Source: Ignavibacteriota bacterium
Lineage (GTDB): Bacteria > Bacteroidota > Ignavibacteria > Ignavibacteriales > Melioribacteraceae
Direction: 5' to 3'
DNA length: 64,000 nt
Assembly: GCA_002698995.1 (NCBI GenBank)
Contig: PAAX01000033.1
Location: forward strand, 1-64,000
Part shown: in pieces, positions 1 through 49,313 of the stretch
Position numbering within the stretch: position 1 is the first letter of the stretch
Layout of the letters: every line of letters begins with the position of its first letter
Made by a program: the position numbers and the translations under genes
The notes under the pieces: model-generated
Told to the model about the DNA's origin: nothing
The model's input: the letters and a program-made list of their open reading frames with translations, nothing else
Databases searched by the model: none

Positions 1-572
1 AAGAACTAGGAGCAAGCAGTGATCAGATAGGTGAAATAGTACAAGTAATTGATGATATAGCAGATCAGACAAACTTGCTTGCCTTAAATGCGGCAATAGA
101 AGCAGCAAGAGCCGGAGAACAGGGAAGAGGATTTGCAGTAGTTGCAGATGAAGTAAGAAAATTAGCAGAACGTACCACAAAAGCAACTAAAGAAATCGGT
201 GAGATGATAAAGAAGATACAAGGTGATACCGGCGGAGCAGTAAAATCTATAAGCTTGGGAACAGAAGAAGTAGAGAAAGGAAAACAATTAGCAGATAAAG
301 CCGGAAAATCATTACAAGAAATAATAAAAGGCTCGAATGATGTAGTAGATGTTGTAAATCAAGTAGCCGCAGCGAGTGAAGAACAATCCTCGGCATCAGA
401 ACAGATAAGCAGAAATATAGAAGCAATAAGTTCGGTAACACAACAGTCGGCTGCCGGAACACAACAGATAGCAAGAGCTGCAGAAGACTTGAACAGATTG
501 ACTGAAGGTTTACAAAAACTTGTCGGAGCTTTTAAAATCCGCAATGAAAATAAGAAATTAATTTTAGCTTAA
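1..572 (+). CDS. Methyl-accepting chemotaxis protein, C-terminal fragment (5' end outside window)
   Basis: The frame is open from base 3, so only the last 189 codons of a longer gene are present. It holds the cytoplasmic signalling hairpin of chemoreceptors, with the near-invariant tip [10 protein letters not shown] followed by [18 protein letters not shown], the region that binds CheA and CheW at the cell pole. Downstream helices carry repeated [12 protein letters not shown] and [10 protein letters not shown] stretches typical of methylation-helix heptads. The sensor and membrane parts are lost upstream. It is very similar to the receptor encoded just downstream, so the two are probably tandem paralogues. 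A strong hairpin follows the stop, so it ends its own transcript. The call is secure; the ligand is unknown. Confidence 0.95.
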
Positions 573-587
573 TCAGTATCCCAAATT

Positions 588-622
588 AGCACCTGATTTA
601 TAATCATTGTAAATCAGGTGCT
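588..622 (+). terminator. Hairpin terminator after the first chemoreceptor
   Basis: A 13-bp perfect inverted repeat (AGCACCTGATTTA and its complement) with a 9-base loop lies 15 bases after the stop codon. The T-run after it is short (gcttt), so termination may be partly factor-dependent. Confidence 0.75.
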
Positions 623-658
623 GCTTTAAGATTTATTCCAGCATTTTCAATTTCCCGC

Positions 659-685
659 TAAACTTTAAGATATGATATCCGATAA
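659..685 (+). promoter_or_regulatory. Sigma-28 (FliA)-type promoter for the chemoreceptor at 744
   Basis: TAAACTTT (659-666), 11 bases, then TCCGATAA (678-685). This matches the classical flagellar sigma-28 pattern TAAAGTTT-N11-GCCGATAA at 14 of 16 positions with exact spacing. The expected transcript start is about 50 bases before the ATG. A TTGACA at 691-696 lies downstream and could instead be a housekeeping -35 box, but its -10 partner is poor. Confidence 0.7.
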
Positions 686-743
686 TTGGGTTGACAATTA
701 ATTGTGTGTCACAATAAATATTTTAGTTAGGAGTTATAGCTTT

Positions 744-2669
744 ATGAGCATTAAGCAGAAAATTAATTTAACTACAAAATTAAATATCATTTTTTTATTG
801 TTGGGAATGCTGTTGATTACAGTTGGTTACATTGGATTCAGCGGAATGAGTAAAACAAACGAAACCTTGGGCTACATTGGATATAACAGGGCAGCTTCAA
901 TAAATTTAGTTCTTCAAGTTGATAGAGATCTTCAACAGGCATTGGTTGCTGAAAAATCACTATTTACGGTTGAAGCAAATTCACCCAAATTTAATAATCT
1001 TGTAAATGATCATAATGAGAATGTTAGTCAAGTTGAAACACGGTGGAGCGAATTAAAAACCTTGTTAACAAACCAAGATGAGATTTCTTTTGCAAATAAA
1101 TTTGATGAAATATTTGATGACTGGGAAAGTATTTCTAATAATATTATTTCTAAGATATCATCAGGAGTTCCTACAGAAATTAAACAAGCCGAATTCATTT
1201 CAGAAAATAAAGGCTCAGAAGTTTTTTCTGAAATGAGGGCAAATATCGACCAACTTACGCAACTTATTGAAGAAGATATAAAAGAAAATGTAAATACTGC
1301 AGGGGCTGATTTTGATAGTTCAAAAAGTTTTATTATTTCCATAATAATTTTCTCAGCTTTAATTACACTTTCTGCCGGAATTTATATTTCAAAAACTATC
1401 GCCCGTCCAATAAAAAAACTTGATGAAGCTGCCTCCTTAGTTGCAGGTGGAAATAACAATGTGCAAGTAGATATAAAAAATTCAGATGAAATTGGAAAAT
1501 TAGCTTCTTCCTTTAATACAATGGTAGAAAACATCAAAAAATCAATTGAAGAAGTAAATGGAAAAAGTCTGGAAGCAGAAAATGCCGCAAGAGATGCAAA
1601 TGAATCCAAAAGCAAAATTGAGAATTATCAGAAGTATTTATCAAGAAGCACTAAACTTCTCGCTGAAAAAATGATGCGGTTTGCCGATGGTGATTTAACA
1701 GTTTCCGTAAAACCGGAAATTGAAAATGATGAAATAGGAGAATTGTTTTCGGAATTCAATTCAGCAGTTTCAAAAATTCATAATATGTTAGTTAATGTTA
1801 ATGAAGCAGTAGCAGCTACAGCCTCAGCCTCCACCGAGATTTCATCATCTTCAGAAGAGATGGCAGCCGGAGCACAAGAACAGTCGGCACAATCTGCAGA
1901 AGTTGCCGGTGCTGTTGAGCAAATGTCAGGTACAATTATACAGACTTCAAAGAATGCTAACTCCGCTTTAATATTTTCAAAAAATGCCGGAGAAAAAGCA
2001 AAATTAGGTGTAGAGAAAGTAAATCAATCAAAAGAAGGAATGAACAGAATTGTTCAATCGGCACAAAGTACCGGACAAATAATTTCTCAGCTTGCACAAA
2101 AGACTGAACAAATTGGTGAAATAACTTTAGTTATTGATGAGATTGCAGATCAGACAAATCTATTAGCACTAAACGCCGCAATAGAAGCGGCACGAGCCGG
2201 AGATCAAGGGAGAGGATTTGCAGTTGTAGCAGATGAGGTAAGAAAACTTGCTGAAAGAACTTCAGTTGCAACCAAAGAGATTGGTGAAACAATTAAGAAA
2301 ATTCAGCATGAAGCTAAATCAGCCGATAAATCTATGATTGAAGCGGGAGAATCGGTTAAAAACGGCATGAAATTAAATGATGAATTGGCAAATGCATTGA
2401 ATGAAATTTTACAAGAAGCGATGAAAGTAATTGATGAAATAAATCAAGTTGCTGCAGCAAGTGAAGAACAGTCATCCGCGTCTGAAGAAATCAGCAGAAA
2501 TATTGAAGCTATCAGTTCTGTAACGCAGCAATCGGCAGCTGGAGTTCAGCAGATTGCCAGAGCAGCAGAAGATTTAAACCGGCTGACAGAAAATCTTCAA
2601 AACCTGGTAAGTAATTTTAAAATCAATCAAGATATGAAATACTTACAACTGAGCGCGAGTAGAAATTAG
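744..2669 (+). CDS. Methyl-accepting chemotaxis protein with 4-helix-bundle-like sensor and HAMP domains
   Basis: Transmembrane chemoreceptor of 641 residues. TM1 is at about 13-33, a helical periplasmic sensor of about 160 residues follows (4HB_MCP-like, with no Cache pattern), then TM2 at about 195-215, HAMP at about 217-270, and a second HAMP-like segment around 308-365 ([11 protein letters not shown] ... [11 protein letters not shown]). The signalling domain has the hairpin tip [15 protein letters not shown] near 475. It should control the CheA kinase in response to an unknown ligand. I chose the ATG at 744 because AGGAG stands 10 bases upstream; a TTG frame extension to 702 would add 14 residues without a ribosome site. 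It is flanked by its own sigma-28-type promoter and a terminator, so it is monocistronic. Confidence 0.95.
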
Positions 2670-2764
2670 TTTTAGTTTTTCTATAAAATTAGGACTGCCA
2701 GAAAATTAGGAAACGGCTATAAATACTTTATTGAAATAACTACTCTAAAAATTTTTGTCATAAA

Positions 2765-2797
2765 AATTAACCTGCATTTTGAAAGTGCAGGTTAATT
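2765..2797 (+). terminator. Hairpin terminator after chemoreceptor 2
   Basis: A 12-bp perfect inverted repeat (AATTAACCTGCA / TGCAGGTTAATT) with a 9-base loop lies about 95 bases after the stop, in otherwise empty sequence. Confidence 0.7.
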
Positions 2798-2859
2798 AAA
2801 AACCTACCTTTAAGATAATTTCTAATAAGAATAATAATCCTTTAAATTTTTCTTGTATT

Positions 2860-2885
2860 TAAAAAAGACTTCTAAAATCCGATAA
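2860..2885 (+). promoter_or_regulatory. Sigma-28-type promoter for the chemoreceptor at 2924
   Basis: TAAA at 2860-2863 and TCCGATAA at 2878-2885 are spaced by 14 bases (15 is classical). The -10 octamer is identical to the one before the gene at 744. It lies 38 bases before the chosen ATG. Confidence 0.6.
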
Positions 2886-2923
2886 TGTGGTGTTAGAATA
2901 ACAATAAATTGGATTGGATAACT

Positions 2924-5131
2924 ATGAAAAAGAAACTTTCACTAAAATTTCTGATTCCAACTATAATAATTATGATTTCCGGAATGATATTTATTTCATG
3001 GGTAGTATCAAATACAGTGCATGATTTTTATTTGGAATCAGCAGAAAATACCATTACTGATAAAATGAATGAATTGAACGAAAAGCTTAACTTAATAGAT
3101 GCTTTAGTTCTAGAAGAAGTAAAAATAGGTATGGCTTCAATAAAAAATGAAGCATCAAAATTGGGAAATCCCAATATTGACGGGACAATTGAATTTGAAG
3201 GGAGAACAATACCAAACCTGAAATTAGGAAACAGTATTGTTGCAAATAATTATAATGTTGTTGATAAGGTAAAAGAAATTGCAGGTGGAACCGCTACAAT
3301 TTTCGTAAATAATAACGGCGAATTTTTAAGAATAAGCACAAATGTAATTAACTCAGGCGGCAACAGGGCTATCGGTACAATTCTAGACCCTAATGGAAAA
3401 GCGATTAAAAATATTCTAAATAAAGAATCATTCTACGGTTTAGTAAACATTTTGAGCAAACCATACTTAACCGCCTATGAGCCTATACTTGATAATGAAA
3501 ATAATTTAATAGGAATTTGGTACACAGGCTATCCCTTAACAACCCTTAATGATATTGGAGAATCTGTAAAAAGAGCAAAACTATTTGAGAAAGGATTTAT
3601 AGCATTAGTCGATGAGAAAGATAATATCCTTTATAATACAGAATTATATACAACTGATGATCTTGAATCGATAATCAACGGTGAAAATTTTAACGAAGAA
3701 TGGATTTCAAACCAAAAAATATTTGATAAGTGGAATTATAAAATTATTGCCGCAGTACCGGATTCAGAGATTAATTCTTATTCTTCATCAATAGCAGGAG
3801 ATGCAGCAATTTTTGGTTTTATATTCTTTACAATTCTTACTTCAATTATAACTTTAATTGTCTTTAAAATTATTTTGCAGCCTGTAAAACAGATAAAATT
3901 AGTAGCAGAAGAATTTACAAACGGAAATAGCAAAGTAAGAGTGAATGTAAAATCTGAAGATGAAATAGGAAATCTTGGGAGTTCCATCAACCAAATGATT
4001 GACAAAATTCTGCAGAATATTTCCGAATTAAAACTGAAAGAAGAAAATGCCCTAACTGCATTAAAAGAAGCTGAGATTGCAAAAAATGAATCCAATCACC
4101 AGAAAGAATACTTTGCTGCAAAGACGAAAGAAATGCTTGTTGAAATGGAGCGATTTGCAGCCGGAGATTTATCGGTTTCTTTAAGTATTGAAAAAGATGA
4201 TGATGTTGGGAAACTGTTTTCAGGATTCAATAGAGCAGTTTCACAAATAAGAGATGTAATTTCTGAATTAAGAATTGCTATTCAGTCTACTGTAAATGCA
4301 AGCAATCAAATCTCATCAAGTTCCGAAGAAATTGCAGCCGGAGCGCAGGAACAATCCGCGCAGGCAAGTGAAATAGCAGCAGCAATTCAAGAAATGGCTG
4401 CAACAATTTTCAATACTACAAAAAACTCAACTACAGCAGCAGAAGCAGCAAAGCAAGCTGGAAGTACGGCAAAATCGGGTGCATCCAAAGTAATTGAAAC
4501 AAAAGATGGGATGAAAAAAATTGTAACTACTTCGGAAACTACTGAAAAAATTGTTCTTTCTTTAACATCAAAAACTGAGCAGATTGGTAAGATTACGCAA
4601 GTGATTGATGAAATTGCAGATCAAACTAATCTTCTTGCATTAAATGCTGCAATTGAAGCTGCAAGAGCCGGAGATCAAGGAAGAGGATTTGCCGTTGTTG
4701 CAGATGAAGTGAAAAAATTAGCTGAACGAACTTCAAAAGCAACAAGTGAAATCGCCGAAACCATAAAAGATATTCAGATTGAAGTAAAAGAAGCAAATAA
4801 ATCCATGCGCGATGCCAAGCAGTCTGTTAATGGCGGCATGATTTTAACGAATGAACTTGCAGAATTTTTAGAGAGAATTTTGATAGAAAGTAATAAAGTA
4901 TTAGAAGTAATTGAGCAAGTAGCTTCAGCAAGTGAAGAACAATCCGCTGCAGCCGAACAAATCGGACAAAATATTGAATCAATAAACATTGTTACCGGTG
5001 AAACTGCTCAAGGAACAACTGCAGTTGCAAGAGAAGCTGAGAATTTACTGAATCTTACCGATGGATTACAAAAGTTGATCTCTAACTTTAAAGTAAATCA
5101 TAATTCTGCAAAAGTTTTCAGCAGCATATAA
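2924..5131 (+). CDS. Methyl-accepting chemotaxis protein with Cache_3-Cache_2-type sensor
   Basis: Chemoreceptor of 735 residues. TM1 is at about 8-28 and a large periplasmic sensor follows at about 33-290. Its pattern [20 protein letters not shown], then [10 protein letters not shown] and IGIWYTGYP, is that of the Cache_3-Cache_2 family, whose members bind small organic ligands directly. TM2 is at about 292-318, then HAMP, then a second HAMP-like unit ([13 protein letters not shown]) near 405-445. The signalling domain has its [15 protein letters not shown] tip near 570. The ATG at 2924 is chosen; a TTG 15 bases upstream is possible, and neither has a clear ribosome site. Its sensor differs from that of the gene at 744 while the signalling halves are close, as expected for receptors feeding one CheA array. 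Confidence 0.95.
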
Positions 5132-5147
5132 AAAGTATGAATCAATT

Positions 5148-5176
5148 GAAACCTTCACATTCTTTGTGAAGGTTTC
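5148..5176 (+). terminator. Rho-independent terminator after chemoreceptor 3
   Basis: A 12-bp perfect stem (GAAACCTTCACA / TGTGAAGGTTTC) with a 5-base loop, followed by tttcttt, 16 bases after the stop codon. Confidence 0.9.
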
Positions 5177-5365
5177 TTTCTTTATAACTGTTTACAAATC
5201 TCCGAAATCCTTATTCAGCTTTTTATAATTTATTTGCTATTCTCATTAAGTCATTTATTTCCGACCAATATGAATGCAGATCTGTTTCTAACAGAATAAA
5301 ATAATTTATTCGTCTGATTAACCCATAGAGAAAATAGACATTACCTCCATTTAAATTAATCATCA

Positions 5366-5392
5366 TAAATATTTTTTCTTATCTTACGATAA
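5366..5392 (+). promoter_or_regulatory. Sigma-28-like promoter for the porin at 5453
   Basis: TAAATATT (5366-5373), 11 bases, TACGATAA (5385-5392). This is the same architecture as the sites before the chemoreceptors, with CGATAA conserved. The gene start is 60 bases downstream. Confidence 0.5.
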
Positions 5393-5452
5393 TTAAGTCG
5401 GGATATAAAAATGTAACTGATTTTTAACGCTTATAAACTGGACATTATCGTT

Positions 5453-6670
5453 ATGAAATCTAAGTTAGTGCTTTATTTAGTTATAATATATACAAATCTT
5501 ATCACTCTATCTGCCAATCCAGAGGATGAAGGCAATTCTAACAATTTTAAAAGCAGACTAAATATGTATGGAGTTGATCTAAATTTTAAATATACAGCAG
5601 ATTTCTACAATAATGTTTCCGAAGGTGTTGAAACCGGTTCAAAATTTATAAATCAAATCCACTTTGGAACAGATTTAAGTTTGGATAGAATCTTTAATAT
5701 TAATCCGGCTATACTTCATGCATCATTTATAGGTGTTAAGGGAAATCAGCCAAATGATTTAGTAGGAAGTACGCAAGGCGTCAGCAATATTGAGACAAAC
5801 AATCTTTTCAAATTATATGACTTATGGATAGATTTTCAACTCAACGATCACTTTTCAATATTAGCGGGATTGTTTGATGTTAACAGCGAATTTGACACAA
5901 AGTACAATTCCGGTTTATTTATTAATCCTTCTCATGGAATTGGAGCTGAATTTGGTTTAACAGGAATTAATGGTCCATCAATTTATCCGAATACTTCTTT
6001 TGGGATTAGAACCAATTTTACATTTGGACATAAAAACTACATTAAGCTGGGAATTTTTGATGCTGTGCCCGGAACCGAAGAGGATCCATATAAGACTTAT
6101 ATAGATTTAAAATTCAACGACGGACTCCTTTTGGTTTCAGAATTTGGATATGATTGTTATGATGATTTTGAATTCGAAAATATAAATGATCAATGTATGA
6201 ATTTTGCGGTTGGTATTTGGTATTTTACTAATAAGCATAATGAAGTGATTGGAACAAATAAACATCATGGAAATTTTGGTTTCTATAGTTTTTTAGAATC
6301 AAGACTATTTCTGCTGAATCAAGAATCTTATTTATCAGGATTTATTAGAACCGGATTAGCTGATAATGATGTGAATCAAATAGATTTGTTTTTCAGCGGT
6401 GGATTAGTTCTAAATAATTATTTTTTTGATGAAGATCAATTGGGATTAACATTTGCCTCTTCCAGATATTCGAGAAAACATTTTAATTCTCAGTCAATAT
6501 TAAATGAAAATCCCGCATTATACGAAACTAATATTGAACTGACTTATTTGGTTAACATTACTGATTTTGCTTCCATTCAGCCGGATATTCAATATTTTAT
6601 AAATCCTTCACATAAATCTTCATTAAAGAACTCACTCTGTGTAGGTCTGCGAACCATAATTAGTTTTTAA
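5453..6670 (+). CDS. OprB-like outer-membrane porin
   Basis: Protein of 405 residues with a signal peptide (about 1-21, hydrophobic core LVLYLVIIYTNLITLS) and a body rich in alternating beta-strand segments, ending in an aromatic outer-membrane signature (VGLRTIISF). The GVDLNFKYTADFYNNVSEG start and the C-terminal ELTYLVNITDFASIQPDIQYFINPS pattern (in two short blocks) resemble the carbohydrate-selective porin family OprB (PF04966). The likely role is diffusion of sugars or other small solutes across the outer membrane. It stands alone between terminators, and the sigma-28-like site upstream hints at co-expression with motility genes. The family call is by eye; the substrate is unknown. Confidence 0.75.
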   Translation: MKSKLVLYLVIIYTNLITLSANPEDEGNSNNFKSRLNMYGVDLNFKYTADFYNNVSEGVETGSKFINQIHFGTDLSLDRIFNINPAILHASFIGVKGNQPNDLVGSTQGVSNIETNNLFKLYDLWIDFQLNDHFSILAGLFDVNSEFDTKYNSGLFINPSHGIGAEFGLTGINGPSIYPNTSFGIRTNFTFGHKNYIKLGIFDAVPGTEEDPYKTYIDLKFNDGLLLVSEFGYDCYDDFEFENINDQCMNFAVGIWYFTNKHNEVIGTNKHHGNFGFYSFLESRLFLLNQESYLSGFIRTGLADNDVNQIDLFFSGGLVLNNYFFDEDQLGLTFASSRYSRKHFNSQSILNENPALYETNIELTYLVNITDFASIQPDIQYFINPSHKSSLKNSLCVGLRTIISF

Positions 6671-18251: not shown

Positions 18252-19235
18252 TTATTGAACAAATGGATAATCTTTAACATCAGCACTTGTAAATTTGGTA
18301 CCAGGCATGTTATCATAAGACATTGCATTCATACCAAACAATAATGATTTTGCATCATATCCTAATAATCTTAAATATGCAGCAACATGAGCAGAAGTTT
18401 GTCCAGTATAGCAATAAACTACAACTGGTTTATCTGTCGGTAAAGTTTTAAGATCTGCTGCTAATTTTAGTGTTTCTTTTGGTGTATATTGAACTGCACC
18501 TTCAATATGTCCTGTTGCGTAATGTTCAGGACTCCAGTAGTTAACTATATAATAATTACTAAGGTTTGTATATAAAGTTGCATTTGATATAGTTGCCGGA
18601 CTAAAACCTTCTTGTAATAAAGCAGCTATTCTTGCTTCTAAAATATCGGCTCCTTCTGTAGCACCTGTATTTAATTCAGGTAATTCACCTGCAGCATTTT
18701 TGTTAGTTGGGGTAGTAACCATGTCTGCAGCTTTACCGTTACCAATTGAATTCTGCCATCTTGAAGCAAAAGCTTGGTTCCAACTGCACATACCGAATTT
18801 TAAATCGAATACGTTACTATGACCAAGTACTCTTAAAATTGTTGTTCCCCATCCAGCAGTTTGACCGGTATAGCAAGCGATAACAACTTTTTCATAACTT
18901 CCTAAATTGTTAGATGCATAATGTGTTACCAAATCAGCTGCAGCAACATTAACCGCACCTTCAATATGTCCAGCTGCAAAATCTGCTGCTGCACGAATAT
19001 CTATGATGTATTGGCTTTTATCAGTTAAAATATTGTTATAAACATCAGTTGCCGAAATCATAGCAGGAGCAGCTGTATTTACAAAATCACCTGTTTGTTC
19101 TAAATATTGAACTAATACTTCAGCTTCATTTACTGTTGGTGTTGGTTCAATAGGATTTTTATCTTCATCTTTACTGCATGCAGTAAATAAAAATGCTACT
19201 AACATTAATAAGTATAAAAGATTTTTTGTTTTCAT
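18252..19235 (-). CDS. Lipoprotein with two rhodanese domains
   Basis: Protein of 327 residues with a lipoprotein signal peptide (LFTAC, lipidated Cys at about 20). Two rhodanese-like domains follow: the first with IIDIRAAADFAAGHIEGAVN and active-site loop CYTGQT (Cys about 121), the second with YIVNYWSPEHYATGHIEGAV and again CYTGQT (Cys about 275). Both catalytic cysteines are present, so sulfur or selenium/tellurium oxyanion chemistry, or redox relay, is possible in the envelope. The start is the ATG at 19235, because an upstream ATG lies inside its GGAG ribosome site. It follows the multiheme lipoprotein gene by about 38 bases and shares its transcript. Rhodanese-family lipoproteins also occur in a Geobacter ext conduit cluster. 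Confidence 0.9.
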   Translation of the reverse strand: MKTKNLLYLLMLVAFLFTACSKDEDKNPIEPTPTVNEAEVLVQYLEQTGDFVNTAAPAMISATDVYNNILTDKSQYIIDIRAAADFAAGHIEGAVNVAAADLVTHYASNNLGSYEKVVIACYTGQTAGWGTTILRVLGHSNVFDLKFGMCSWNQAFASRWQNSIGNGKAADMVTTPTNKNAAGELPELNTGATEGADILEARIAALLQEGFSPATISNATLYTNLSNYYIVNYWSPEHYATGHIEGAVQYTPKETLKLAADLKTLPTDKPVVVYCYTGQTSAHVAAYLRLLGYDAKSLLFGMNAMSYDNMPGTKFTSADVKDYPFVQ

Positions 19236-19273
19236 TTGTAACTCCATTACATTTTATTTTTTTGAATTAAGGT

Positions 19274-20659
19274 TTATTCCCATCCGTTTGGTAATTTTCC
19301 ATTTACTATAATTTCTTGATTAGCTTGAATTTCCCATGATTCTAAATCTTCTTCAAACAGATAAAGCTCTTTATTTTTAAAAGTACCGTCACTATTTTTA
19401 GAAATATGACATCCTTCTGTACAATTTGCATTTACTTTCCAATCGCCATTTTCATCTTTGAATCCGGTTCTTGAAGTAATTCTAATTATATTGTGAGGTG
19501 TTGTATATTTATAAGTTGGTCTAATCGGAAATTCCGGTAAATTATCTATTCCATAATTCTTCCAGCTATCTGGTGCCATTAATGATCTTCTTAATAAAGC
19601 AAATTCATATTTCGTTTTTACATCCGGAATTGGATTCATTCCAATTTTAAATCCTTGATATGAAGGAACTCTAGCACCTTCGCCGCCGATATGACAGCTT
19701 CCGCAATTATTATAATCTTGAGAGTGGCATGTTTGGCAGTTGAAAGTATTTATATGCATTGTATGGAATAAGTTAGCATTAGCCATTCCAGCATGACAGT
19801 TTTCACAATCCGGCAATTCAGGATATTTATATCTCTGATCGTATAATTGTCCATTACCATGAATTTCATTTTTGCTGTGGCAGTCGATACATTGGAATCT
19901 TCCTTCAGTTAGATGAACATCCGGAACTGTTCCAACTGCAACACCGTAGTAAGCATGTCCTCCACGGCTTGTATGACAAGTTGTACAGTGATCCTGCATA
20001 TCTGGAGTCTTAACGAAATTATGTCCTTGATATAAACCACCGCCGCCTGCTTTTGGTCTGTTTACGTGACAGTCACCGCATGAAGCATGACATTTTGCAC
20101 AGTTCACATCATAACCTTCTTTCATCATATCACTTAATGCATCAAAACCTTCGGGAACATTCCCTTTTCCGGCTCTTAATGCAACCATACTCTTTTGACC
20201 CCAGCCTTGATGTACATTGAATTTATTTCTAGCAACAATATCGGCATGACAAGAAGAACATTTTTCTTCTGCATAATGAGATGGTTTTTTAATAAAATTG
20301 CCTGAGTGAGCTTCAGTTTTATCTGCTGTATTATCAACTCCATTATGGCAGTCAGTACAATTTAATGTTCCATGAATATCATCTTTAAAAGCTTGGTAAC
20401 CTTCACCACCAAGATAGACTCTATCAAAAGGTTCAATATGAGGTGTTTCACCGCCGCAACCTGCTCCCCCTTCAGAAGGAGGATCCGGTGTATAAACTAC
20501 TTTTAAGTGATCATAATTAGTATGACATCCTTCGCAAGATGCAACCGATTTGGTAATTTCATTTTCAACCGGCTGATTAACATTAGTTTTGTCTTTTTCA
20601 CAAGCAGCCATTAAAACTAAGAGAACAATTGCAACGAAATAGAGAATTATTTTTTTCAT
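19274..20659 (-). CDS. Multiheme c-type cytochrome lipoprotein (10 CXXCH plus one CX3CH)
   Basis: Lipoprotein of 461 residues (MAAC lipobox, Cys 20). I count ten CXXCH heme sites in order: CEGCH, CTDCH, CSSCH, CAKCH, CGDCH, CTTCH, CIDCH, CENCH, CQTCH and CGSCH, plus CTEGCH, a CX3CH site, near residue 410. CAKCHASCGDCH packs two hemes only 7 residues apart. It should carry electrons in the outer membrane, either periplasmic or surface-exposed. GGAAAG ribosome site. It is the first gene of a two-gene unit with the double-rhodanese lipoprotein. It lies downstream of a sigma-54-like promoter and paired operator repeats, next to an NtrC-type regulator. The catalytic substrate, if any, is unknown. 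Confidence 0.92.
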   Translation of the reverse strand: MKKIILYFVAIVLLVLMAACEKDKTNVNQPVENEITKSVASCEGCHTNYDHLKVVYTPDPPSEGGAGCGGETPHIEPFDRVYLGGEGYQAFKDDIHGTLNCTDCHNGVDNTADKTEAHSGNFIKKPSHYAEEKCSSCHADIVARNKFNVHQGWGQKSMVALRAGKGNVPEGFDALSDMMKEGYDVNCAKCHASCGDCHVNRPKAGGGGLYQGHNFVKTPDMQDHCTTCHTSRGGHAYYGVAVGTVPDVHLTEGRFQCIDCHSKNEIHGNGQLYDQRYKYPELPDCENCHAGMANANLFHTMHINTFNCQTCHSQDYNNCGSCHIGGEGARVPSYQGFKIGMNPIPDVKTKYEFALLRRSLMAPDSWKNYGIDNLPEFPIRPTYKYTTPHNIIRITSRTGFKDENGDWKVNANCTEGCHISKNSDGTFKNKELYLFEEDLESWEIQANQEIIVNGKLPNGWE

Positions 20660-20869: not shown

Positions 20870-22204
20870 TTACTCTTCGGCAAGACCTAATCGTTTCATT
20901 TTACGCCAAAGTGTTGTGCGTCCAACTTTCAATTCTTGTGCAACTTTAGTTTTATTCCACTTATGTCGATTAAGTATTTTCAGTAATTCTGTCCGTTCGC
21001 AGTTTTTGTCAACGCATTCATCAATACTTTTTACTGATGAATTAGAAACATAATTTCTAATAATAGCCGGAAGCTTTGAAGAATGTATTGTAGCACCATT
21101 TGTCCTTACAAAAGCGTATTCAATAGTATTTTCGAGTTCTCTTACATTACCTGGCCAATTATAATTCATTAATGTTTCTAAAGCGTTATCGTCTAATTCT
21201 TTTAATTCCTTTTTGTAAATAATTGCAAACTTACTTATAAAGTGATTTATTAATGGGATAATATCTTCAGTTCTTTCTCTAAGAGGAGGAACTTCAATTG
21301 GTATTACACTTAAACGATAATACAAATCCTCTCTTAAAGATCCCTTTTTTAATGCTTGATCAATATTGATATTTGTTGCTGAAATTATTCGAACGTCAGA
21401 ATTTCTGGTAATTGATTCGCCTACTCTTTCAAATGTTCCTTCCTGTAAAACTCTTAATAGTTTAGACTGCATTTGAATCGGCATTTCGGCAATCTCATCT
21501 AAAAAAATCGTTCCTTCATTTGCCAACTCAAATCTTCCGAGTCTATCTTTATGAGCGTCAGTAAAAGCTCCTTTAACATGACCAAATAATTCGCTTGCAA
21601 GTAAATTATCAGGAAAAACAGAACAATTAACTTTTACAAATTCTTTTGAATTTCTTCTTGAGGATTTTTGAATAGCATTTGCAACCAATTCTTTTCCTGT
21701 ACCAGATTCACCATGAATCAAAACAGGGGCATCCGACTCTGAAATCTCTTTTATTAATTCAAAGATTTCCTTCATCGCTTTACTATGACCAATTATACCG
21801 TAAAAGTTTGTATCTTTCTCTAGACTTTTTCTAAAAGCTTCCACTTCCGATTGATCTCTAAAAGAAATTACTCCGCCGGTTGGTTCGTTTTCTTCATTGT
21901 AAAGTACTGCAGAATTTAACCTTATCGGTTTTCTTTCACCATCTTTAGAAACAATCTTTGCCTCAAAATCATATATATTTTTATTGTTTCTTAGCACAAT
22001 AGAGATTGGACAATCTAAAAAACATAAATCGGATTTAAATACATGCTTACAAAATTTACCAAGAACTTCTTCTTTATTGAAGCCGGTTATTTTTTCAGCT
22101 GCTTTATTAAAAAAATTGATTCTAAAAGTTTTATCTACGGTAAATACTCCTTCACCTATCGAATCAAGTATATGATCTTGTATTTTTTCTTTTTGATTAA
22201 TCAT
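20870..22204 (-). CDS. Sigma-54-dependent transcriptional activator with PAS domain
   Basis: NtrC-family enhancer-binding protein of 444 residues. The N-terminal PAS domain (about 8-118) carries three cysteines (52, 61, 65; HVFKSDLCFLDCP) that could hold an Fe-S cluster or act as a redox switch. The AAA+ domain has Walker A GESGTGKE (about 165), GAFTDA (about 212; the sigma-54 contact loop, usually GAFTGA), Walker B IFLDEI (about 233) and the LYYRLSVIPIEVPPLRER finger region. A Fis-type HTH (KTKVAQELKVGRTTLWRKMK) ends it. It has no receiver domain, so it senses directly through PAS. It sits between two cytochrome units. Start taken at the ATG 22204; no clear ribosome site. Confidence 0.94.
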   Translation of the reverse strand: MINQKEKIQDHILDSIGEGVFTVDKTFRINFFNKAAEKITGFNKEEVLGKFCKHVFKSDLCFLDCPISIVLRNNKNIYDFEAKIVSKDGERKPIRLNSAVLYNEENEPTGGVISFRDQSEVEAFRKSLEKDTNFYGIIGHSKAMKEIFELIKEISESDAPVLIHGESGTGKELVANAIQKSSRRNSKEFVKVNCSVFPDNLLASELFGHVKGAFTDAHKDRLGRFELANEGTIFLDEIAEMPIQMQSKLLRVLQEGTFERVGESITRNSDVRIISATNINIDQALKKGSLREDLYYRLSVIPIEVPPLRERTEDIIPLINHFISKFAIIYKKELKELDDNALETLMNYNWPGNVRELENTIEYAFVRTNGATIHSSKLPAIIRNYVSNSSVKSIDECVDKNCERTELLKILNRHKWNKTKVAQELKVGRTTLWRKMKRLGLAEE

Positions 22205-22279
22205 TTGCAATAGTTTTAATTGCTAAAGATACTAAAAGGAAAATGAATTTTGTGAAAAATAGGATGGTACATAAAAAAA

Positions 22280-22298
22280 GAGCTGCATTACGCAGCCC
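22280..22298 (-). terminator. Terminator of the porin-cytochrome operon
   Basis: On the minus strand GGGCTGC, 5-base loop, GCAGCTC (one G-U pair), then TTTTTTTAT. It follows the stop at 22307 directly. Confidence 0.9.
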
Positions 22299-22306
22299 TT
22301 TAATAG

Positions 22307-23194
22307 CTAATTTCCAAATACGTTCTTTTCACCATTAATATGCTTTAATTTGTCAATTATATTTCCACTGGCATCTACAACACCGGGATGACAATTAGCG
22401 CAGGAATTTAAAGGGAATGGAGTATGTCCCACAGGAGCAACACTTACCAAATTATTTGATGCATCATACTGCCCATGGCAAGTTCCGCAAGCAGCTTGAG
22501 TACCATCTACCTTATTCCAAATTGGTGAATAATTATTTCCTACCATTACAGAATCAGTATAAGCAAACTGGCTGGTCGATTCAGATCTCTTGAATTCAAA
22601 ATTACCATGACAGTAAGTATTATTACATTTCAATCCATCATAATCGTATTCAGCACCGCCGTTTAAGTTAGCAAAATTTCCAAACTTCATTTCTGCCGGT
22701 AATCCGTTTATATGTGCAGATGCAAAATTTTGACCAGCCGGAACTGTTGCTCTTTCATGACACTCAAAACATCCAATAACTTGACCAATACTATTTGTAT
22801 ACAAGTGAACATCATGAGCACCAACACCTTTAGCTGTTGTAGAAGTATTTCCAACTAAATCTGCTGGTGGAGCAATTCTATCCGGATTAGAAAAATCACC
22901 ATGACAAGTATTACAAGCTTCAGGACCGCTTGGTTCGTTATGACAGGTTAAGCAGGTTGCTTCTGCTATTCCTCCGGCATAATTTGCAGCATGGCATGAT
23001 TGACATTCTTTCAAATCCCAATTATTATCTTGTATCAATTTTCCATGAAAGTTAGGTGAATTCGGATTTTTAATACCTTCGGCATGTACTCCATTTGATT
23101 CCACCACCGGAATATTTTCTTTTACATCACTGCATGCAAAGAAGAACATAAAAGAGAAAATTGAAATTAATATTAACAATAATGTTTTTTTCAT
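22307..23194 (-). CDS. Multiheme lipoprotein, CxxxxCH/CXXCH type (6 CXXCH plus one CX4CH)
   Basis: Lipoprotein of 295 residues (FFFAC lipobox, Cys 21). Heme sites: CQSCH, CLTCH, CNTCH, CFECH, then CNNTYCH (CX4CH), then CGTCH and CANCH. The KCNNTYCHG element together with following CXXCH sites fits the Geobacter-type CxxxxCH/CXXCH family (TIGR01904). It is the last gene of the four-gene minus-strand operon, after the 14-heme cytochrome, and in the position where porin-cytochrome conduits encode their surface-exposed cytochrome. The inferred role is handing electrons to an extracellular acceptor. Whether the CX4CH site binds heme needs an appropriate lyase. Confidence 0.9.
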   Translation of the reverse strand: MKKTLLLILISIFSFMFFFACSDVKENIPVVESNGVHAEGIKNPNSPNFHGKLIQDNNWDLKECQSCHAANYAGGIAEATCLTCHNEPSGPEACNTCHGDFSNPDRIAPPADLVGNTSTTAKGVGAHDVHLYTNSIGQVIGCFECHERATVPAGQNFASAHINGLPAEMKFGNFANLNGGAEYDYDGLKCNNTYCHGNFEFKRSESTSQFAYTDSVMVGNNYSPIWNKVDGTQAACGTCHGQYDASNNLVSVAPVGHTPFPLNSCANCHPGVVDASGNIIDKLKHINGEKNVFGN

Positions 23195-23219
23195 TTTATA
23201 AACCTGTAATTATAATTAC

Positions 23220-24431
23220 TTAATTAGCCGCACCATGGCAGTAACCGCAGAATCCCACACCGGCAATACCGGTTGATGCACTTGCCGATGTATGACAATT
23301 ATAACAAACTGAACCATCTGAATTATGCCAGTCACCATTTTCACTATGCATAAAATTAGCATCGTGAGTTTTGGGATTTGTTCCTTTTATACCATCGTTA
23401 TCAGTATGACACAACATACAAGTAGGATCTCCGCCAAAAGTATCATGACAGCTTGCACATCTTTCAATATCTCTTTTTGCAAGATCGGCATGCGCACCAC
23501 CACCTGAACCAACTCCAATCATTACAAAGTTAGGCATAGTATGTGAAGTAGGAACCATTCCACCTTGGGCAAAATCTTGATTAGCTCCGGTATGACATTC
23601 AACGCAGAAAGTTTCTGTTTGATGACAAGTTGAACATTCCATAGTTTTTGATTTTGCATCAATACCATGGATGAAGCGATAGTTCAATTCATGAACTCTT
23701 GTAATCTGCTGCTGCTTTGAATTGTCAGTGTATCTGTGAGGTGAATAAGGAACATAAAAATCAGTTGCAGTATTTCCTTCTGTCAGCATAGTTGTACCAA
23801 CATGGCAGCCTTCACAGAAATCGTTGCTATGACACATTGCGCAGTTTTCATCCGCATCCATTGCTTCAAATTTATGTTCTTTGAAGAATGAAGCTGTTCT
23901 GTGATTTTCTGGAATTAGATCAACTGTTGAACTATGGCATGCTTCGCATTCATTAGTAGCAACTGCTGATTCATTATGGCAAGTAAAACAAGTTTCCATA
24001 GGTGGATTTGCTCCTGTCGATTCAAAACCATAATCAACTTTGTCTAATCCTTTATGGCATGTTGTACATTCCATTTCCTGATCACCAACATGGAATGAGT
24101 GATCAAAGAATAAATCAGATTGTTTTTGAACTAACGGTTCATAAACATCTTCATAGTGGCACATTTGACAATTTTCTTCATCTTCAACATCATGGCATGC
24201 AGCACAGTCATCTTTTGCGGGAAGCAGTCTTCCATCTAAAGTATTTGCTTCTGCAACTGAACTATGGCAAGATGCACAATCAGCTAATTCAGCATGCACA
24301 GAATGTGAAAATTTAATAACAGATTTGTTGCTTTTCTCCGGCTCTTCAGAAACATTTGATGTAAATGCAGTTAAAGAAATAAAAACCAGAGAAAGAGTTG
24401 CAATTATTATATAAACGTGTTTTGATTTCAT
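23220..24431 (-). CDS. 14-heme c-type cytochrome (periplasmic partner of the conduit)
   Basis: Protein of 403 residues with an N-terminal hydrophobic export signal (VYIIIATLSLVFISLTAF) and no lipobox. I count fourteen CXXCH sites: CASCH, CAACH, CQMCH, CTTCH, CFTCH, CEACH, CAMCH, CEGCH, CSTCH, CVECH, CASCH, CMLCH, CYNCH and CGYCH. The many isolated histidines (SHSVH, FDHSFH, HGID, HTMP) are probable distal ligands. The pattern resembles MtrA/OmaB-type decaheme and dodecaheme proteins that thread an outer-membrane barrel. The start codon follows the barrel gene stop by 2 bases (TAA-CT-ATG), so the two are translationally coupled, as expected for a 1:1 complex. Confidence 0.93.
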   Translation of the reverse strand: MKSKHVYIIIATLSLVFISLTAFTSNVSEEPEKSNKSVIKFSHSVHAELADCASCHSSVAEANTLDGRLLPAKDDCAACHDVEDEENCQMCHYEDVYEPLVQKQSDLFFDHSFHVGDQEMECTTCHKGLDKVDYGFESTGANPPMETCFTCHNESAVATNECEACHSSTVDLIPENHRTASFFKEHKFEAMDADENCAMCHSNDFCEGCHVGTTMLTEGNTATDFYVPYSPHRYTDNSKQQQITRVHELNYRFIHGIDAKSKTMECSTCHQTETFCVECHTGANQDFAQGGMVPTSHTMPNFVMIGVGSGGGAHADLAKRDIERCASCHDTFGGDPTCMLCHTDNDGIKGTNPKTHDANFMHSENGDWHNSDGSVCYNCHTSASASTGIAGVGFCGYCHGAAN

Positions 24432-24433
24432 AG

Positions 24434-25711
24434 TTATAATAGATTTAAGTTAGCATTAAACCAATGATTAATTTTGAATAACACTCTCATATCATTGTTA
24501 TAGATTTTGTTATTCATGTATTGACCTTGAAGATCGAATGAAAGATTATTCCATGGTCTTAGATTTACACCTGCTAAAACTGCCATCAAACTATTTCTTT
24601 CGGAATCTGCAGAAAGTTTATAGTTAGTATTTGTTAATCCTATTGAAGGTGTAATAAATCCTTTTTCGAATGATTTAGCCAAGTAAACTGAAATAGCATC
24701 CAATTCGCCGGCATAACCAAATGTTTTACGATAACTAACAGAACCAAATTTAAAATTGAATCCTATAGTGGCTCTTTGTGAATTATCATCTTCGTATTGA
24801 ACATTAGCAAATTTACCAAATATGGTAGTTGAGTTATCAAATCGGTAATCAACACCTGCTTCAATTTCTTGAGTATTACCATAATTGAATACTGAAAAAA
24901 TTGAATTATATCTTATCCTAGGTTCTCTATAGTTATAATAAAGGCTGATTCCTACATTTTCGATCTGTTCATATCTTCCCAATATTTCAAATTTGGAAGT
25001 AGTTTTGAAGTTAAGATCATGTTCATAACGAGTATAAACATTAAACATATCTTTCATTCTGTATGAAACTTCTCCACCAACAAACTTAAATTGATTGGAT
25101 TCCTGTTCGATTAAGACTTGAATAGGATTAAAATTTGCGTCAAGTCTTGTAGCAGTATATTGATAAGCTTTAAAATTCTTATCAACATAATTTACTTTTA
25201 CATTTAAGTCCTTAATAGGATAAGCACTAAATTGAGCACCTAAAACGTAATCGTTTTTCCAATCATCAGTCAGTTTCATTTCTTGATAAGCGGGAACATT
25301 ACCACCATAGAATCCGGTTAATGAATAACCTTCATACTTAAGTTTTAAGTTAACACCATCATAAACTCCGCCCGCAACAGTGTTATAAAAAGGTTGTCTT
25401 CCCAGCTTTAAAGTTGCAATATTTAATAAGTCTCTTGCTTCCAAGTAGATATTATAAACTCTTAATCTTGGATCATCATCCAGTGCATTTCCAATATTAG
25501 ATTCAAATCCCAGTCTTGTTCTTAATGCAAATTTATCTTGATTTACATTTAAGTAAAGAGATTCGAAATTTCTAATGAACGACTTGGTTTCTGTTGCACT
25601 GGTTGCTCTTTCAAAAGAGTAAAGAGAAGCAGAAAATCTTCCGTTAATATTTTGGGCAGAAACTATTAACGGAAGAATTGTAACAAATAAAATAAATTTT
25701 AGAATACGCAT
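24434..25711 (-). CDS. Outer-membrane beta-barrel of a porin-cytochrome conduit
   Basis: Protein of 425 residues with a signal peptide (MRILKFILFVTILPLIVSAQ) and a body of alternating aromatic/polar strands separated by short turns, ending in an inward aromatic strand (INHWFNANLNLL). It has no CXXCH and no TonB plug. Strand-like segments such as TLKLGRQPFYNTVAGGVYDG are typical of large porins of the MtrB/OmbB functional class, though the sequences in that class diverge strongly. It sits between a tetraheme gene and a 14-heme gene in one operon. From that context it is inferred to be the sheath that holds the periplasmic cytochrome in the outer membrane. Confidence 0.82.
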   Translation of the reverse strand: MRILKFILFVTILPLIVSAQNINGRFSASLYSFERATSATETKSFIRNFESLYLNVNQDKFALRTRLGFESNIGNALDDDPRLRVYNIYLEARDLLNIATLKLGRQPFYNTVAGGVYDGVNLKLKYEGYSLTGFYGGNVPAYQEMKLTDDWKNDYVLGAQFSAYPIKDLNVKVNYVDKNFKAYQYTATRLDANFNPIQVLIEQESNQFKFVGGEVSYRMKDMFNVYTRYEHDLNFKTTSKFEILGRYEQIENVGISLYYNYREPRIRYNSIFSVFNYGNTQEIEAGVDYRFDNSTTIFGKFANVQYEDDNSQRATIGFNFKFGSVSYRKTFGYAGELDAISVYLAKSFEKGFITPSIGLTNTNYKLSADSERNSLMAVLAGVNLRPWNNLSFDLQGQYMNNKIYNNDMRVLFKINHWFNANLNLL

Positions 25712-25724
25712 TTTTTAACCAAGA

Positions 25725-26267
25725 TTAATTTTTTGGTATGTTGTGTTTTATTTCGTTATAATTTTTAGCGAAATCAAATCCTTTGTATGTAGGACTCTTT
25801 TCGTTATGGCAAGTAACACACATTTTTTTGATTTCTTCTTCATTGTTCCAAACTTTTAAACCGTTCTTAACAGATTCTTCTCTGCTTTTCATAACTTTCA
25901 TTGATTTATATTCAGAACCTGGTCCATGGCATGTTTCGCACTGTACACCATCTTCAACGCTGAATTTTGCATCTAATAATTTTGCATCAACATTATAACC
26001 TGAAGCATGACAAACTAAACATTCTTTAGCTTTAGAAGCATCAGCAATACCCATTTTAGAAGCTATTTCTTTAGCTTTATCTGATTGCAATGTTTTAAAA
26101 GCATTGGCATGTTTAGATGCTTTCCAAATTTTTAATTGTTCGCCTTGTTTTTCAGATTTATGGCACATGCTGCATTTATCAACGCCTATGTATCCAAAAT
26201 CCTGGGCAAAGGTACTTAAACTAAATCCCGCAAAAAAGATTGCAGTAATAAGAACTTTCTTTAACAT
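25725..26267 (-). CDS. Tetraheme periplasmic cytochrome c (c554-like)
   Basis: Protein of 180 residues with a cleavable signal peptide (ending STFAQ) and four CXXCH sites: CSMCH, CLVCH, CETCH and CVTCH. The context of each (GVDKCSMCHKSEKQG, ECLVCHASGYN, GVQCETCHGPGSEY, CVTCHNEKSP) is that of the cytochrome c554/c-prime family (PF13435). It likely ferries electrons across the periplasm to the 14-heme partner. It is the first gene of the operon and has a perfect AGGAGG ribosome site, which suggests high expression. It ends 13 bases before the barrel gene. Confidence 0.92.
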   Translation of the reverse strand: MLKKVLITAIFFAGFSLSTFAQDFGYIGVDKCSMCHKSEKQGEQLKIWKASKHANAFKTLQSDKAKEIASKMGIADASKAKECLVCHASGYNVDAKLLDAKFSVEDGVQCETCHGPGSEYKSMKVMKSREESVKNGLKVWNNEEEIKKMCVTCHNEKSPTYKGFDFAKNYNEIKHNIPKN

Positions 26268-26584
26268 TTCAGCCTCCTAAGTTGTGTACTAATTTTCGTC
26301 GCAAATAAATTAGGATATTATAATCTAATTAGCAACATTTATTGAAAAATTATTTTAATTTATCTATCAAATAGGATACCGAAGATTTTATTGTTTTATA
26401 ATCTCAAAATAGAGCTTTTTATACTATTATTTATTTTTAGTGTGACATTCAAGTCACACTTACATTTTTATTTATGAGAAAAAACCTTCATTTTTACAGA
26501 TTTTTTAAATGGGTATTAAGTTTTATAACAACTTATAGTCTTATTTTTCTTAGATTTGCGAGAATAAATTAATTGAAGCTTACA
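26268..26584. other. Divergent intergenic region between the conduit operon and the aromatic biosynthesis fusion
   Basis: About 317 bases, very AT-rich. It holds a perfect 8-bp-arm palindrome (26439-26460) and presumably two divergent promoters. TAGATTTG at 26551-26558 fits a Bacteroidota -7 box for the plus-strand gene, but no good -33 box is seen. No sigma-54 promoter or TGAAACA array was found here. Confidence 0.5.
26439..26460. promoter_or_regulatory. CRP/FNR-like palindromic operator
   Basis: AGTGTGAC, 6 bases, GTCACACT, perfect 8-bp arms. It contains TGTGA and TCACA as in Crp sites, but separated by 8 bases rather than 6. It lies 172 bases before the cytochrome operon and 125 bases before the aromatic fusion gene, so either or both may be controlled. 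Confidence 0.5.
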
Positions 26585-45808: not shown

Positions 45809-47311
45809 ATGAAAATGAAGCTGCCGCATTCTGTTTACAATTGGGTTTCATTGATAGGGGCAACTATTGCCTTAATTAGTTTTAGTATGATAGTTTTTCT
45901 TTTTGCCGTTTCAGTTTTTATTAATGAAGGGGCTACATATTTAGGATTGGTTATCTATATAATTCTTCCATCACTACTTGTTTTTGGTTTGATATTAATT
46001 CCAATAGGAATGTACTTTAAATCAAAAAAAGAGAAAAAAGGGGAAGTACAGGATTTAAGATGGCCCATTTTTAATCTTAATGAAGAAAGACAAAGAAATG
46101 CAGCAACTATTTTTATAATTGGAACAACAATTTTTCTCTTTGCAACTGCAATTGGAAGTTACGAAGCATTTCATTTTACAGAATCAAATCAATTTTGCGG
46201 TGAAATTTGCCATACTGTAATGGCTCCGGAATATACAGCTTATCAAAGTTCTCCTCACGCAAGAGTTAAATGTGTTGACTGCCACGTAGGTACTGGAGCT
46301 GATTGGTATGTTAGATCAAAAATGTCCGGTATGTATCAAGTTTATGCAGTACTTGCCGATAATTATCCTCGTCCCATTCCTACTCCAATCAGTAATTTGC
46401 GTCCTGCTCAAGAAACATGCGAACAATGCCATTGGCCGGAAAAATTTTATGCACACAAACTTAAAGTGCAAAGACATTATTTATCAGATGAAAAAAACAG
46501 TGAATGGGATATTCATATGCTGATGAAAATCGGTCCGGATAATTCAGCTCTCGGTTTAGCTGAAGGAATTCACTGGCACATTAATCCCGATATAAAAATT
46601 GAATACAAATCAAGTAATGATTCAAGACAATCGATTCCTTGGGTTAAATATACTAATCTAAAAACAGGTGAAGAGCATATTTATCTTAATGAAGATGAAG
46701 GAGATATTGAAGGTTTAGATACACTTGAAACCAGAGTTATGGATTGTGTTGACTGCCATAACAGACCTTCACATAATTACAAGCCGCCTGCATTTTTTGT
46801 GAATAATGCTTTAACTGCCGGAACAATGCCTAAGGAACTTCCGGGAATTAAATCTTTATCAATGGAAATATGCGGAACCGAATTCAGCACTATGGATTCT
46901 GCTATGCAATATATTGAGCAGACAATTAATGAGCATTATGAAAGCAATTATGATTCAATTTATACTAATCATAAAGATTTGATTGATAAAGCTGTTGTCG
47001 GTTTACAGAATGAATTCAAAAGAAATATTTTTCCCGAAATGAAAGTTAGATGGGATGCTTATCCAAATAATATTGGACACGTTGAATTTAACGGCTGTTT
47101 CAGATGCCACAATGATTTACATGTAAGTGATGAAGGAAGGATGATTTCTAAAGATTGCAATTTATGCCATACTATAATTGCACAAGGTCCGAGCGAACAA
47201 TTAGTAAGAACAACAAATGATGTTAGTCTTGACTTTAAACACCCGGTTGATATTGATGAAATGTGGAGAGACGGAGTTTGTACCGACTGCCATACCGGAT
47301 TGAATCCGTAA
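45809..47311 (+). CDS. Heptaheme NapC/NirT-family inner-membrane cytochrome (ImcH-like)
   Basis: Protein of 500 residues with three membrane helices (about 12-36, 42-66, 92-114) followed by a periplasmic part. Seven heme sites: CGEICH (a CX3CH first site followed by TVM, as at the NapC/NrfH quinol-side heme), CVDCH, CEQCH, CVDCH, CFRCH, CNLCH and CTDCH. AYQSSPHARVKCVDCHVG and RPAQETCEQCHWPEKF are NapC/NirT-type. The combination of three helices and seven hemes is that of Geobacter ImcH, a quinol-to-periplasm electron exit needed for respiration of extracellular acceptors. GGAG ribosome site. Monocistronic and 20 kb from the conduit genes. Confidence 0.92.
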   Translation: MKMKLPHSVYNWVSLIGATIALISFSMIVFLFAVSVFINEGATYLGLVIYIILPSLLVFGLILIPIGMYFKSKKEKKGEVQDLRWPIFNLNEERQRNAATIFIIGTTIFLFATAIGSYEAFHFTESNQFCGEICHTVMAPEYTAYQSSPHARVKCVDCHVGTGADWYVRSKMSGMYQVYAVLADNYPRPIPTPISNLRPAQETCEQCHWPEKFYAHKLKVQRHYLSDEKNSEWDIHMLMKIGPDNSALGLAEGIHWHINPDIKIEYKSSNDSRQSIPWVKYTNLKTGEEHIYLNEDEGDIEGLDTLETRVMDCVDCHNRPSHNYKPPAFFVNNALTAGTMPKELPGIKSLSMEICGTEFSTMDSAMQYIEQTINEHYESNYDSIYTNHKDLIDKAVVGLQNEFKRNIFPEMKVRWDAYPNNIGHVEFNGCFRCHNDLHVSDEGRMISKDCNLCHTIIAQGPSEQLVRTTNDVSLDFKHPVDIDEMWRDGVCTDCHTGLNP

Positions 47312-49192: not shown

Positions 49193-49313
49193 TAATTTCT
49201 CCAAATGAAATCATAATGATTTGAAAACAGTCAACAAATCTAATAAAAAAATGTTTCTTAAATTGTTTTTTATGATCCGAAGAGAAATTATTAAGTCTGA
49301 TTAATTAAATCTT

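Follow-up and report, generated by a model that had tools for sequence, protein, structure and literature searches.

The window analyzed here is a stretch of 64,000 nucleotides (contig PAAX01000033.1, assembly GCA_002698995.1) from an Ignavibacteriota bacterium of the family Melioribacteraceae, in which an earlier note, made from the letters of the DNA, had described a four-gene minus-strand operon for multiheme cytochromes and an outer-membrane beta-barrel. We found four open reading frames (ORFs) exactly where that note had placed them (Table 1), in the order c4, barrel, c14, and lipo7, separated by 13, 2, and 25 bases; only positions 24432-24433 lie between the barrel stop and the c14 start, in agreement with the tight coupling that had been described. 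Counting motifs reproduced the heme numbers given in the note (4 in c4, 14 in c14, and 6 CXXCH plus 1 CX4CH in lipo7), and a hairpin with a T run lies directly after lipo7 on the minus strand (22301-22277), where a terminator had been claimed. Because three terminator-like sites were observed across the region relative to 1.7 (standard deviation 1.3) in shuffled sequences, the evidence for this terminator is its position after the last gene and not the number of such sites. The four-gene arrangement is not a product of chance, because homologs share the same order in the genomes of relatives; identity to these homologs is 39-64% for the barrel, 42-64% for c14, 44-63% for c4, and 32-56% for the lipoprotein.

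Table 1 Features of the conduit operon and of associated genes in the window
Feature	Position	Strand	Description
c4, exported tetraheme cytochrome (c554-type)	25725..26267	-	180 aa; 4 CXXCH; Pfam Cytochrome_C554
Outer-membrane beta-barrel	24434..25711	-	425 aa; AlphaFold2 all-beta model
c14, 14-heme exported cytochrome	23220..24431	-	403 aa; 14 CXXCH; c7/c3-type Pfam domains
lipo7, multiheme lipoprotein	22307..23194	-	295 aa; 6 CXXCH + 1 CX4CH; lipobox-like Cys21
Intrinsic terminator-like hairpin after operon	22277..22301	-	11-pair stem, then T run
PAS/sigma-54 activator, candidate regulator	20870..22210	-	Pfam Sigma54_activat 234 bits, PAS_9, HTH_8
c10lipo, multiheme lipoprotein, associated module	19274..20659	-	10 CXXCH + 1 CX3CH
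Double-rhodanese lipoprotein, associated module	18252..19247	-	Pfam Rhodanese, 2 stretches, 98.4 bits
NapC/NrfH-type membrane cytochrome, candidate quinol dehydrogenase	45809..47311	+	500 aa; 6 CXXCH + 1 CX3CH

Conservation of gene order was assessed, as the earlier note had proposed, in three sets of loci: 47 flanks from relatives' genomes; 80 named loci, which are the best 80 of 143 and overlap with the first set; and 28 divergent class-level loci, hand-picked from class profile matches for family spread and thus a nonrandom sample. The named loci come from Melioribacteraceae, Melioribacter, Stygiobacter, Ignavibacterium, and other Ignavibacteria, some of them labelled Bacteroidetes, Bacteroidota, Chlorobi-type, or "bacterium", and the flanks of many are incomplete. 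The barrel is followed by a c14 gene of the same orientation in 47/47 relatives' loci and 79/80 named loci, the sole exception (L125) being a contig that terminates within the barrel, and in all 28 class-level loci no other listed ORF comes between the two. Barrel-to-c14 gaps range from -59 to 22 bases in the 47 pairs and from -95 to 15 in the 79 pairs, with overlaps that hinge on the automatic choice of start; at class level the two genes are no more than 100 bases apart in 26 loci, the outliers being a gap of 218 bases (L199) and an overlap of 103 bases (L218). A recognized lipoprotein accompanies the pair in 43/47 relatives' loci and 75/80 named loci, the five named loci without one sitting at or near contig ends, and at class level it directly succeeds c14 in the ORF list in 26 of 28 loci (one gene later in L199; contig end in L195). 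c4 is found on the same strand in 42/47 and 73/80 loci, and in 38/47 and 66/80 it lies upstream of the barrel at a distance of no more than 200 bases.

The barrel itself was detected in 48 of 58 relatives, the genome of the window included. A profile search matched 185/294 genomes of the class and 57/395 across the phylum, all 57 being from the same class or nearer. The homologous operon is present in Ignavibacterium sp. (loci L149, L169, L170, L176, and L179) and in Stygiobacter electus 09-Me (L148). A search of viral contigs found no relative, and we rejected an origin from a virus or mobile element on that ground.

All 28 cysteines of c14 belong to its 14 CXXCH motifs. The protein scored above the Pfam cut-offs for Cytochrome_C7, class III, c3, and MtrC/F-like heme models, its best PDB profile match was 3ov0 (E 7.1e-23), which we take to be GSU1996, and it reached 33.4 bits against the c7-type triheme domain model TIGR04257 (cut-off 40). 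Among 76 complete c14-labelled ORFs of the named loci, 73 carry 14 CXXCH and 3 carry 13. Along c14, two histidines followed by three hemes occur twice, and two histidines followed by two hemes then occur four times (3+3+2+2+2+2). We aligned 62 of 75 complete c14 proteins with the window copy (alignment A4, 63 rows; smaller hand-picked alignments were A1 with 14 rows and A2 with 12), and in A4 the 14 motif histidines and 12 additional histidines are invariant; this invariance of all 14 motifs applies to the aligned subset only, because all three 13-CXXCH forms (L120, L126, and L128) are among the 13 proteins omitted in thinning the set. Class-level c14 proteins retain the full 14 hemes and 12 histidines in 18 of 28 loci, are short of the two final hemes with their two histidines, and of nothing else, in 7 (12-heme forms), and have additionally lost heme 3 in the remaining 3 (11 hemes). 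Because the 12-heme forms miss precisely one end unit, c14 is, as read from its motifs, modular, with an optional final two-heme module. Twelve extra histidines for 14 hemes leave two hemes that must have another sixth ligand, and the invariant Met145 is a candidate sixth ligand for one of them; GSU1996 is described as having one His-Met heme per triheme domain (PMC10138318). The 12 invariant nonmotif histidines would fit mostly bis-His hemes and a protein that is more wire than enzyme.

The barrel protein contains no cysteine by motif count. Its AlphaFold2 model, from a 64-row alignment (A3, which joins the window copy to 63 of 75 complete barrels), is all-beta with a mean pLDDT of 85.5 and a pTM of 0.74. 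DSSP assigned 24 strands to this model, of which we read 183-189 and 195-201 as a loop hairpin, leaving about 22 that cross the membrane; the barrel is open in this model. TonB-dependent receptor barrels have 22 strands, and they were the top structural matches by VIA-align 2 (5fp2_B: Z 20.5, root mean square deviation 4.5, 344 aligned); in our own reading the sequence leaves no room for the plug of such receptors. Foldseek ranked smaller porins and ushers at the top, at low TM-scores. Solved MtrB was not among the 50 structural matches listed, which settles nothing on likeness to MtrB. The hidden Markov model search suggested in the earlier note gave no Pfam family above cut-off, MtrB_PioB (PF11854) not being among the hits at E <= 1; NCBIfam gave no family at E <= 0.1, and the PDB, searched by sequence, gave no convincing relative (a single match at E 0.23). 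One point of emphasis in the earlier note needs correction: with 425 residues the barrel is not a large one for this role, porins of porin-cytochrome (Pcc) conduits being, according to Shi et al. (PMC4245776), far smaller than MtrB.

The best-conserved ten-residue blocks of the barrel include 262-271 (0.88), 332-341 (0.87), 82-91 (0.86), and 272-281 (0.85). The stretch 262-281 (REPRIRYNSIFSVFNYGNTQ) contains the part of the model with the lowest confidence (model residues 266-274; the window rows of A3 and A4 start at residue 2, so model numbering is protein numbering minus 1), and by strand parity this loop would be extracellular or folded into the pore. Porins usually vary in their extracellular loops, and a loop that is invariant and could not be placed by modeling the barrel alone suggests a docking site for a cytochrome.

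c4 matched Pfam Cytochrome_C554 at 73.9 bits (cut-off 20.8) and is probably a periplasmic electron shuttle. lipo7 has one cysteine besides its heme motifs, at position 21 behind a hydrophobic segment in a lipobox-like setting, and it scored above both the Pfam and NCBIfam cut-offs for GSu_C4xC__C2xCH, a Geobacter CxxxxCH...CXXCH model. All but one of the 69 listed homologs (68) carry a CX4CH motif. Heme number varies: 33 of 71 complete lipo7-labelled ORFs have 6+1 sites and others range up to 28+1, the smallest resembling fragments. The largest form, in L108 (= L061, G031), has 28 CXXCH plus 1 CX4CH, and its partners c4 and c14 still have 4 and 14 hemes. Following the lipobox cysteine, Ser occupies position +2 in 62 and Asp or Glu position +3 in 55 of 69 homologs, counts that retain five rows (L136, L138, L156, L157, and L181) in which the cysteine was mis-chosen automatically. 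These residues resemble the SDDFE and SDDDD export signals described as directing Bacteroidota lipoproteins to the surface (PMC5080379), which supports surface exposure of lipo7, the probable cell-surface partner of the conduit.

The closest published counterpart comes from Ignavibacterium album JCM 16511, in which Shi et al. 2014 (PMC4245776) describe the Pcc cluster IALB_1840-1839-1838-1837, with consecutive locus tags, as a periplasmic c-type cytochrome, a porin, a 400-residue 14-heme c-type cytochrome, and an outer-membrane c-type cytochrome with a CX3-15CH motif. Compared by this published description, the window operon has the same layout, including the 14-heme partner and the atypical motif; I. 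album JCM 16511 lies outside the best 80 of 143 named loci. The same paper places the IALB_1839 and IALB_1838 porin and cytochrome outside all five of its Pcc groups. The earlier note had proposed a distinct conduit type, and this holds insofar as the operon differs from MtrCAB and, following that classification, from the five Pcc groups; as a new type it is rejected, because the IALB_1840-1837 layout was published in 2014. That such clusters had been reported in Ignavibacteria relatives, as the note stated, is borne out by PMC4245776, PMC7399161, and PMC6137239, of which the two later papers, where they name the porins, term them OmbB-like or Geobacter-like. An open-licence full-text search returned IALB_1837-1839 by name only in the 2014 paper, and nothing for Ignavibacteri with 14-heme or for Stygiobacter. 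A porin gene adjoining a periplasmic multiheme c-type cytochrome gene, which marks Pcc clusters, was found in 47/47, 79/80, and 28/28 loci, and the outer-membrane multiheme cytochrome that most of them include is represented by lipo7, whose location is predicted from its lipobox-like Cys21 and which has seven heme sites. Pcc porins have 18-22 predicted transmembrane strands in the description of PMC4245776; our value of about 22 was read from DSSP on an AlphaFold2 model, unlike the predictor used in that paper.

A search of the whole genome with MtrB_PioB (PF11854) gave no match, and with no such domain in either barrel or genome we rejected membership in the Mtr family. In Shewanella MtrCAB and Sideroxydans MtoAB the wire lies within the barrel, and the window operon would work alike. 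Against the DmsE/MtrA-type decaheme family TIGR03508, c14, with its 14 hemes, scored 18.0 bits (cut-off 192.2). Geobacter ombB-omaB-omcB shares the logic of a porin with periplasmic and outer-membrane multiheme cytochromes, with 8 and 12 hemes there (as listed in PMC4245776) versus 14 and 7 here. The Geobacter extABCD and extEFG clusters likewise combine a periplasmic dodecaheme cytochrome, a barrel, and lipoprotein cytochromes (PMC6148476, in its account of these clusters), and differ from the window operon in heme counts and gene order; both Geobacter comparisons were made by description. With GSU1996, the c7-polymer nanowire of Geobacter, c14 has in common c7-type repeats and a linear array of hemes; GSU1996 has 12 hemes in four triheme domains (as described in PMC10138318), whereas c14 combines two modules of three hemes with four of two and is partnered by a barrel.

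Downstream of the operon follow, in order, the sigma-54 activator, c10lipo, and the double-rhodanese lipoprotein (Table 1). Some of the relatives also have the activator beside the operon, and the c10lipo and rhodanese pair accompanies the conduit in 9/47 relatives' loci and 11/80 named loci. A double-rhodanese lipoprotein beside an 11-site lipoprotein recalls the rhodanese-like ExtH of Geobacter, and the features in common with Geobacter extHIJKLMNOPQS, as that region is presented in PMC5877670, are a rhodanese-like protein, a porin, multiheme cytochromes, and, regionally, Rieske and cytochrome b proteins. c10lipo and c14 were rejected as equivalogs of ExtM (27.0 versus 800 bits) and ExtN (18.8 versus 200), respectively.

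Two proteins are candidates for the electron source, neither encoded within the operon: the NapC/NrfH-type membrane cytochrome, whose homologs (44-48% identical) adjoin the conduit in 7/28 class-level loci, and an 800-residue CbcL-like protein elsewhere in the genome (G000:C19:365-2767). Genes for CbcL-like (multiheme plus b561 fusion), NrfH-type, or cytochrome b proteins occur in the flanks of 29/80 named and 12/28 class-level loci, in a count that disregards strand and in which "CbcL-like" is a label set from domain make-up. In some loci a Rieske protein, a cytochrome b, and an 11-heme cytochrome lie just upstream of the conduit on the same strand; in one of these (L201) the full series is a b561-like protein, a NapC/NrfH-type protein, Rieske, cytochrome b, the 11-heme cytochrome, and then the conduit, followed on the same strand by a further multiheme cytochrome and a CcmF-like assembly protein. 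The L201 cytochrome b matches ExtP at 206 bits, under the 290-bit cut-off. In L190, where the wire has 11 hemes, three complex I-type antiporter subunits (416-5810) immediately precede the conduit, and L200, L206, and L215 have similar-sized ORFs at that position. A 19-heme cytochrome of 657 residues with a C-terminal hydrophobic segment lies upstream of the CbcL-like gene in L164 (2045-4015) and has relatives in 27/80 named loci.

Taken together, the class-wide pairing of barrel and c14, the open barrel of about 22 strands, the c7-type wire, and the quinol-dehydrogenase-type neighbors argue that the operon encodes a porin-cytochrome conduit of the I. album type across the outer membrane, carrying electrons outward from menaquinol to an extracellular acceptor, and we give this reading a probability of roughly 85%. 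The route to or from extracellular acceptors proposed in the earlier note is thus kept as the best reading, in which we infer that c14 inserts into the pore, that lipo7 sits at the surface, that flow is outward, and which acceptor and inner-membrane partner take part. In this scheme, inner-membrane multiheme quinol dehydrogenases, for which the NapC/NrfH-type and CbcL-like proteins are the candidates, would draw electrons from the menaquinol pool, and c4 would carry them across the periplasm. From c4 they would pass to c14, a probable wire that would be seated in or against the barrel, and finally, through the seven sites of lipo7 on the outside of the cell, to an extracellular acceptor, for example Fe(III) or Mn(IV) minerals, humics, or an electrode.

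Several observations weigh against this reading. The conduit type is so far known from genes and predicted structure. None of the three quinol-dehydrogenase types is found in the flanks of 51/80 named loci, many of them incomplete; c4 is the next listed upstream ORF in only 15/28 class-level loci (within 400 bases in 14); and L104, a roomy locus, has no recognized lipoprotein. The AlphaFold2 model of c14 is unreliable (pLDDT 62.4, pTM 0.44), being confident only at residues 1 to ~140, and in our own reading the N-terminal hydrophobic stretch of the window copy lacks a clean signal-peptidase site, so an inner-membrane anchor has to be considered.

Heme wires are reversible in principle, and the same conduit could run inward, from extracellular donors (Fe(II), a cathode, or partner cells) to the quinone pool. 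The Rieske and cytochrome b pair upstream in several class-level loci would suit this direction; the CbcL-like and NapC/NrfH-type neighbors are, however, of kinds for which a role in quinol oxidation by iron reducers has been proposed, and Melioribacter roseus is listed there among Fe(III)-reducing bacteria (PMC6295460; also PMC6137239), so that we consider inward flow unlikely. A little less likely again is that c14, keeping its N-terminal helix, remains fixed to the inner membrane and reaches across the periplasm, with the barrel holding only part of c14 or the lipoprotein: the weak cleavage site and a helix predicted at high pLDDT for residues 2-23 point this way, but signal peptides are likewise predicted as helices and some homologs have, in our reading, an acceptable A-X-A-like site. 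We consider it least probable that the barrel serves as a plain porin for diffusion, one of the roles discussed for ExtI with selenite and tellurite (PMC5877670), with the cytochromes confined to the periplasm, since despite the ordinary porins and ushers in the first Foldseek rows and a rhodanese lipoprotein gene downstream, like the rhodanese-like extH beside extI (same source), the barrel has no NCBIfam match and a wire cytochrome, needless for such a porin, follows 28/28 divergent barrels.

Two further features of the window lie outside the conduit genes. A perfect palindrome (TGTGACATTCAAGTCACA, 26441-26458) stands between the operon and a divergent chorismate mutase/DAHP synthase gene; it is CRP-like, and exact in the window. 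As a shared promoter element it was rejected, being found in 1 of 66 upstream regions of relatives versus 0.9 expected; with two mismatches allowed, shuffled sequences too give about one site per 64 kb (mean 0.89). Positions 48299-50189 hold two tandem, mutually similar genes of 301 and 291 residues, presumably signal-peptidase-I-like.

The conduit belongs to a known and apparently still uncharacterized kind. To it the present analysis adds the class-wide pairing of barrel and c14, the loss of a wire module, the relation to c7, and the joint Rieske and cytochrome b clusters, none of which we met in the literature covered by a nonexhaustive search, as well as a lipoprotein with a variable number of hemes that can reach 28 CXXCH. 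More tentatively, and with the odds rather against than for it, the Ignavibacteria may own a conduit lineage built on a c7-type heme ruler (3+3+2+2+2 plus an optional two-heme module) and a TonB-receptor-sized barrel, in which length would change by gain or loss of whole modules, the heme number of the surface cytochrome (mostly 7 sites, up to 29) would be tuned to the acceptor, and some families would hold the whole quinol-to-surface chain (Rieske, cytochrome b, and 11-heme cytochrome) in one cluster. The barrel and c14 form a clean marker pair for detection in metagenomes, and the natural wire lengths of 14, 12, and 11 hemes allow the threading model of porin-cytochrome conduits to be tested. 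With the barrel in 185/294 genomes, these data suggest that extracellular electron transfer is a common trait of this widespread and little-studied class.

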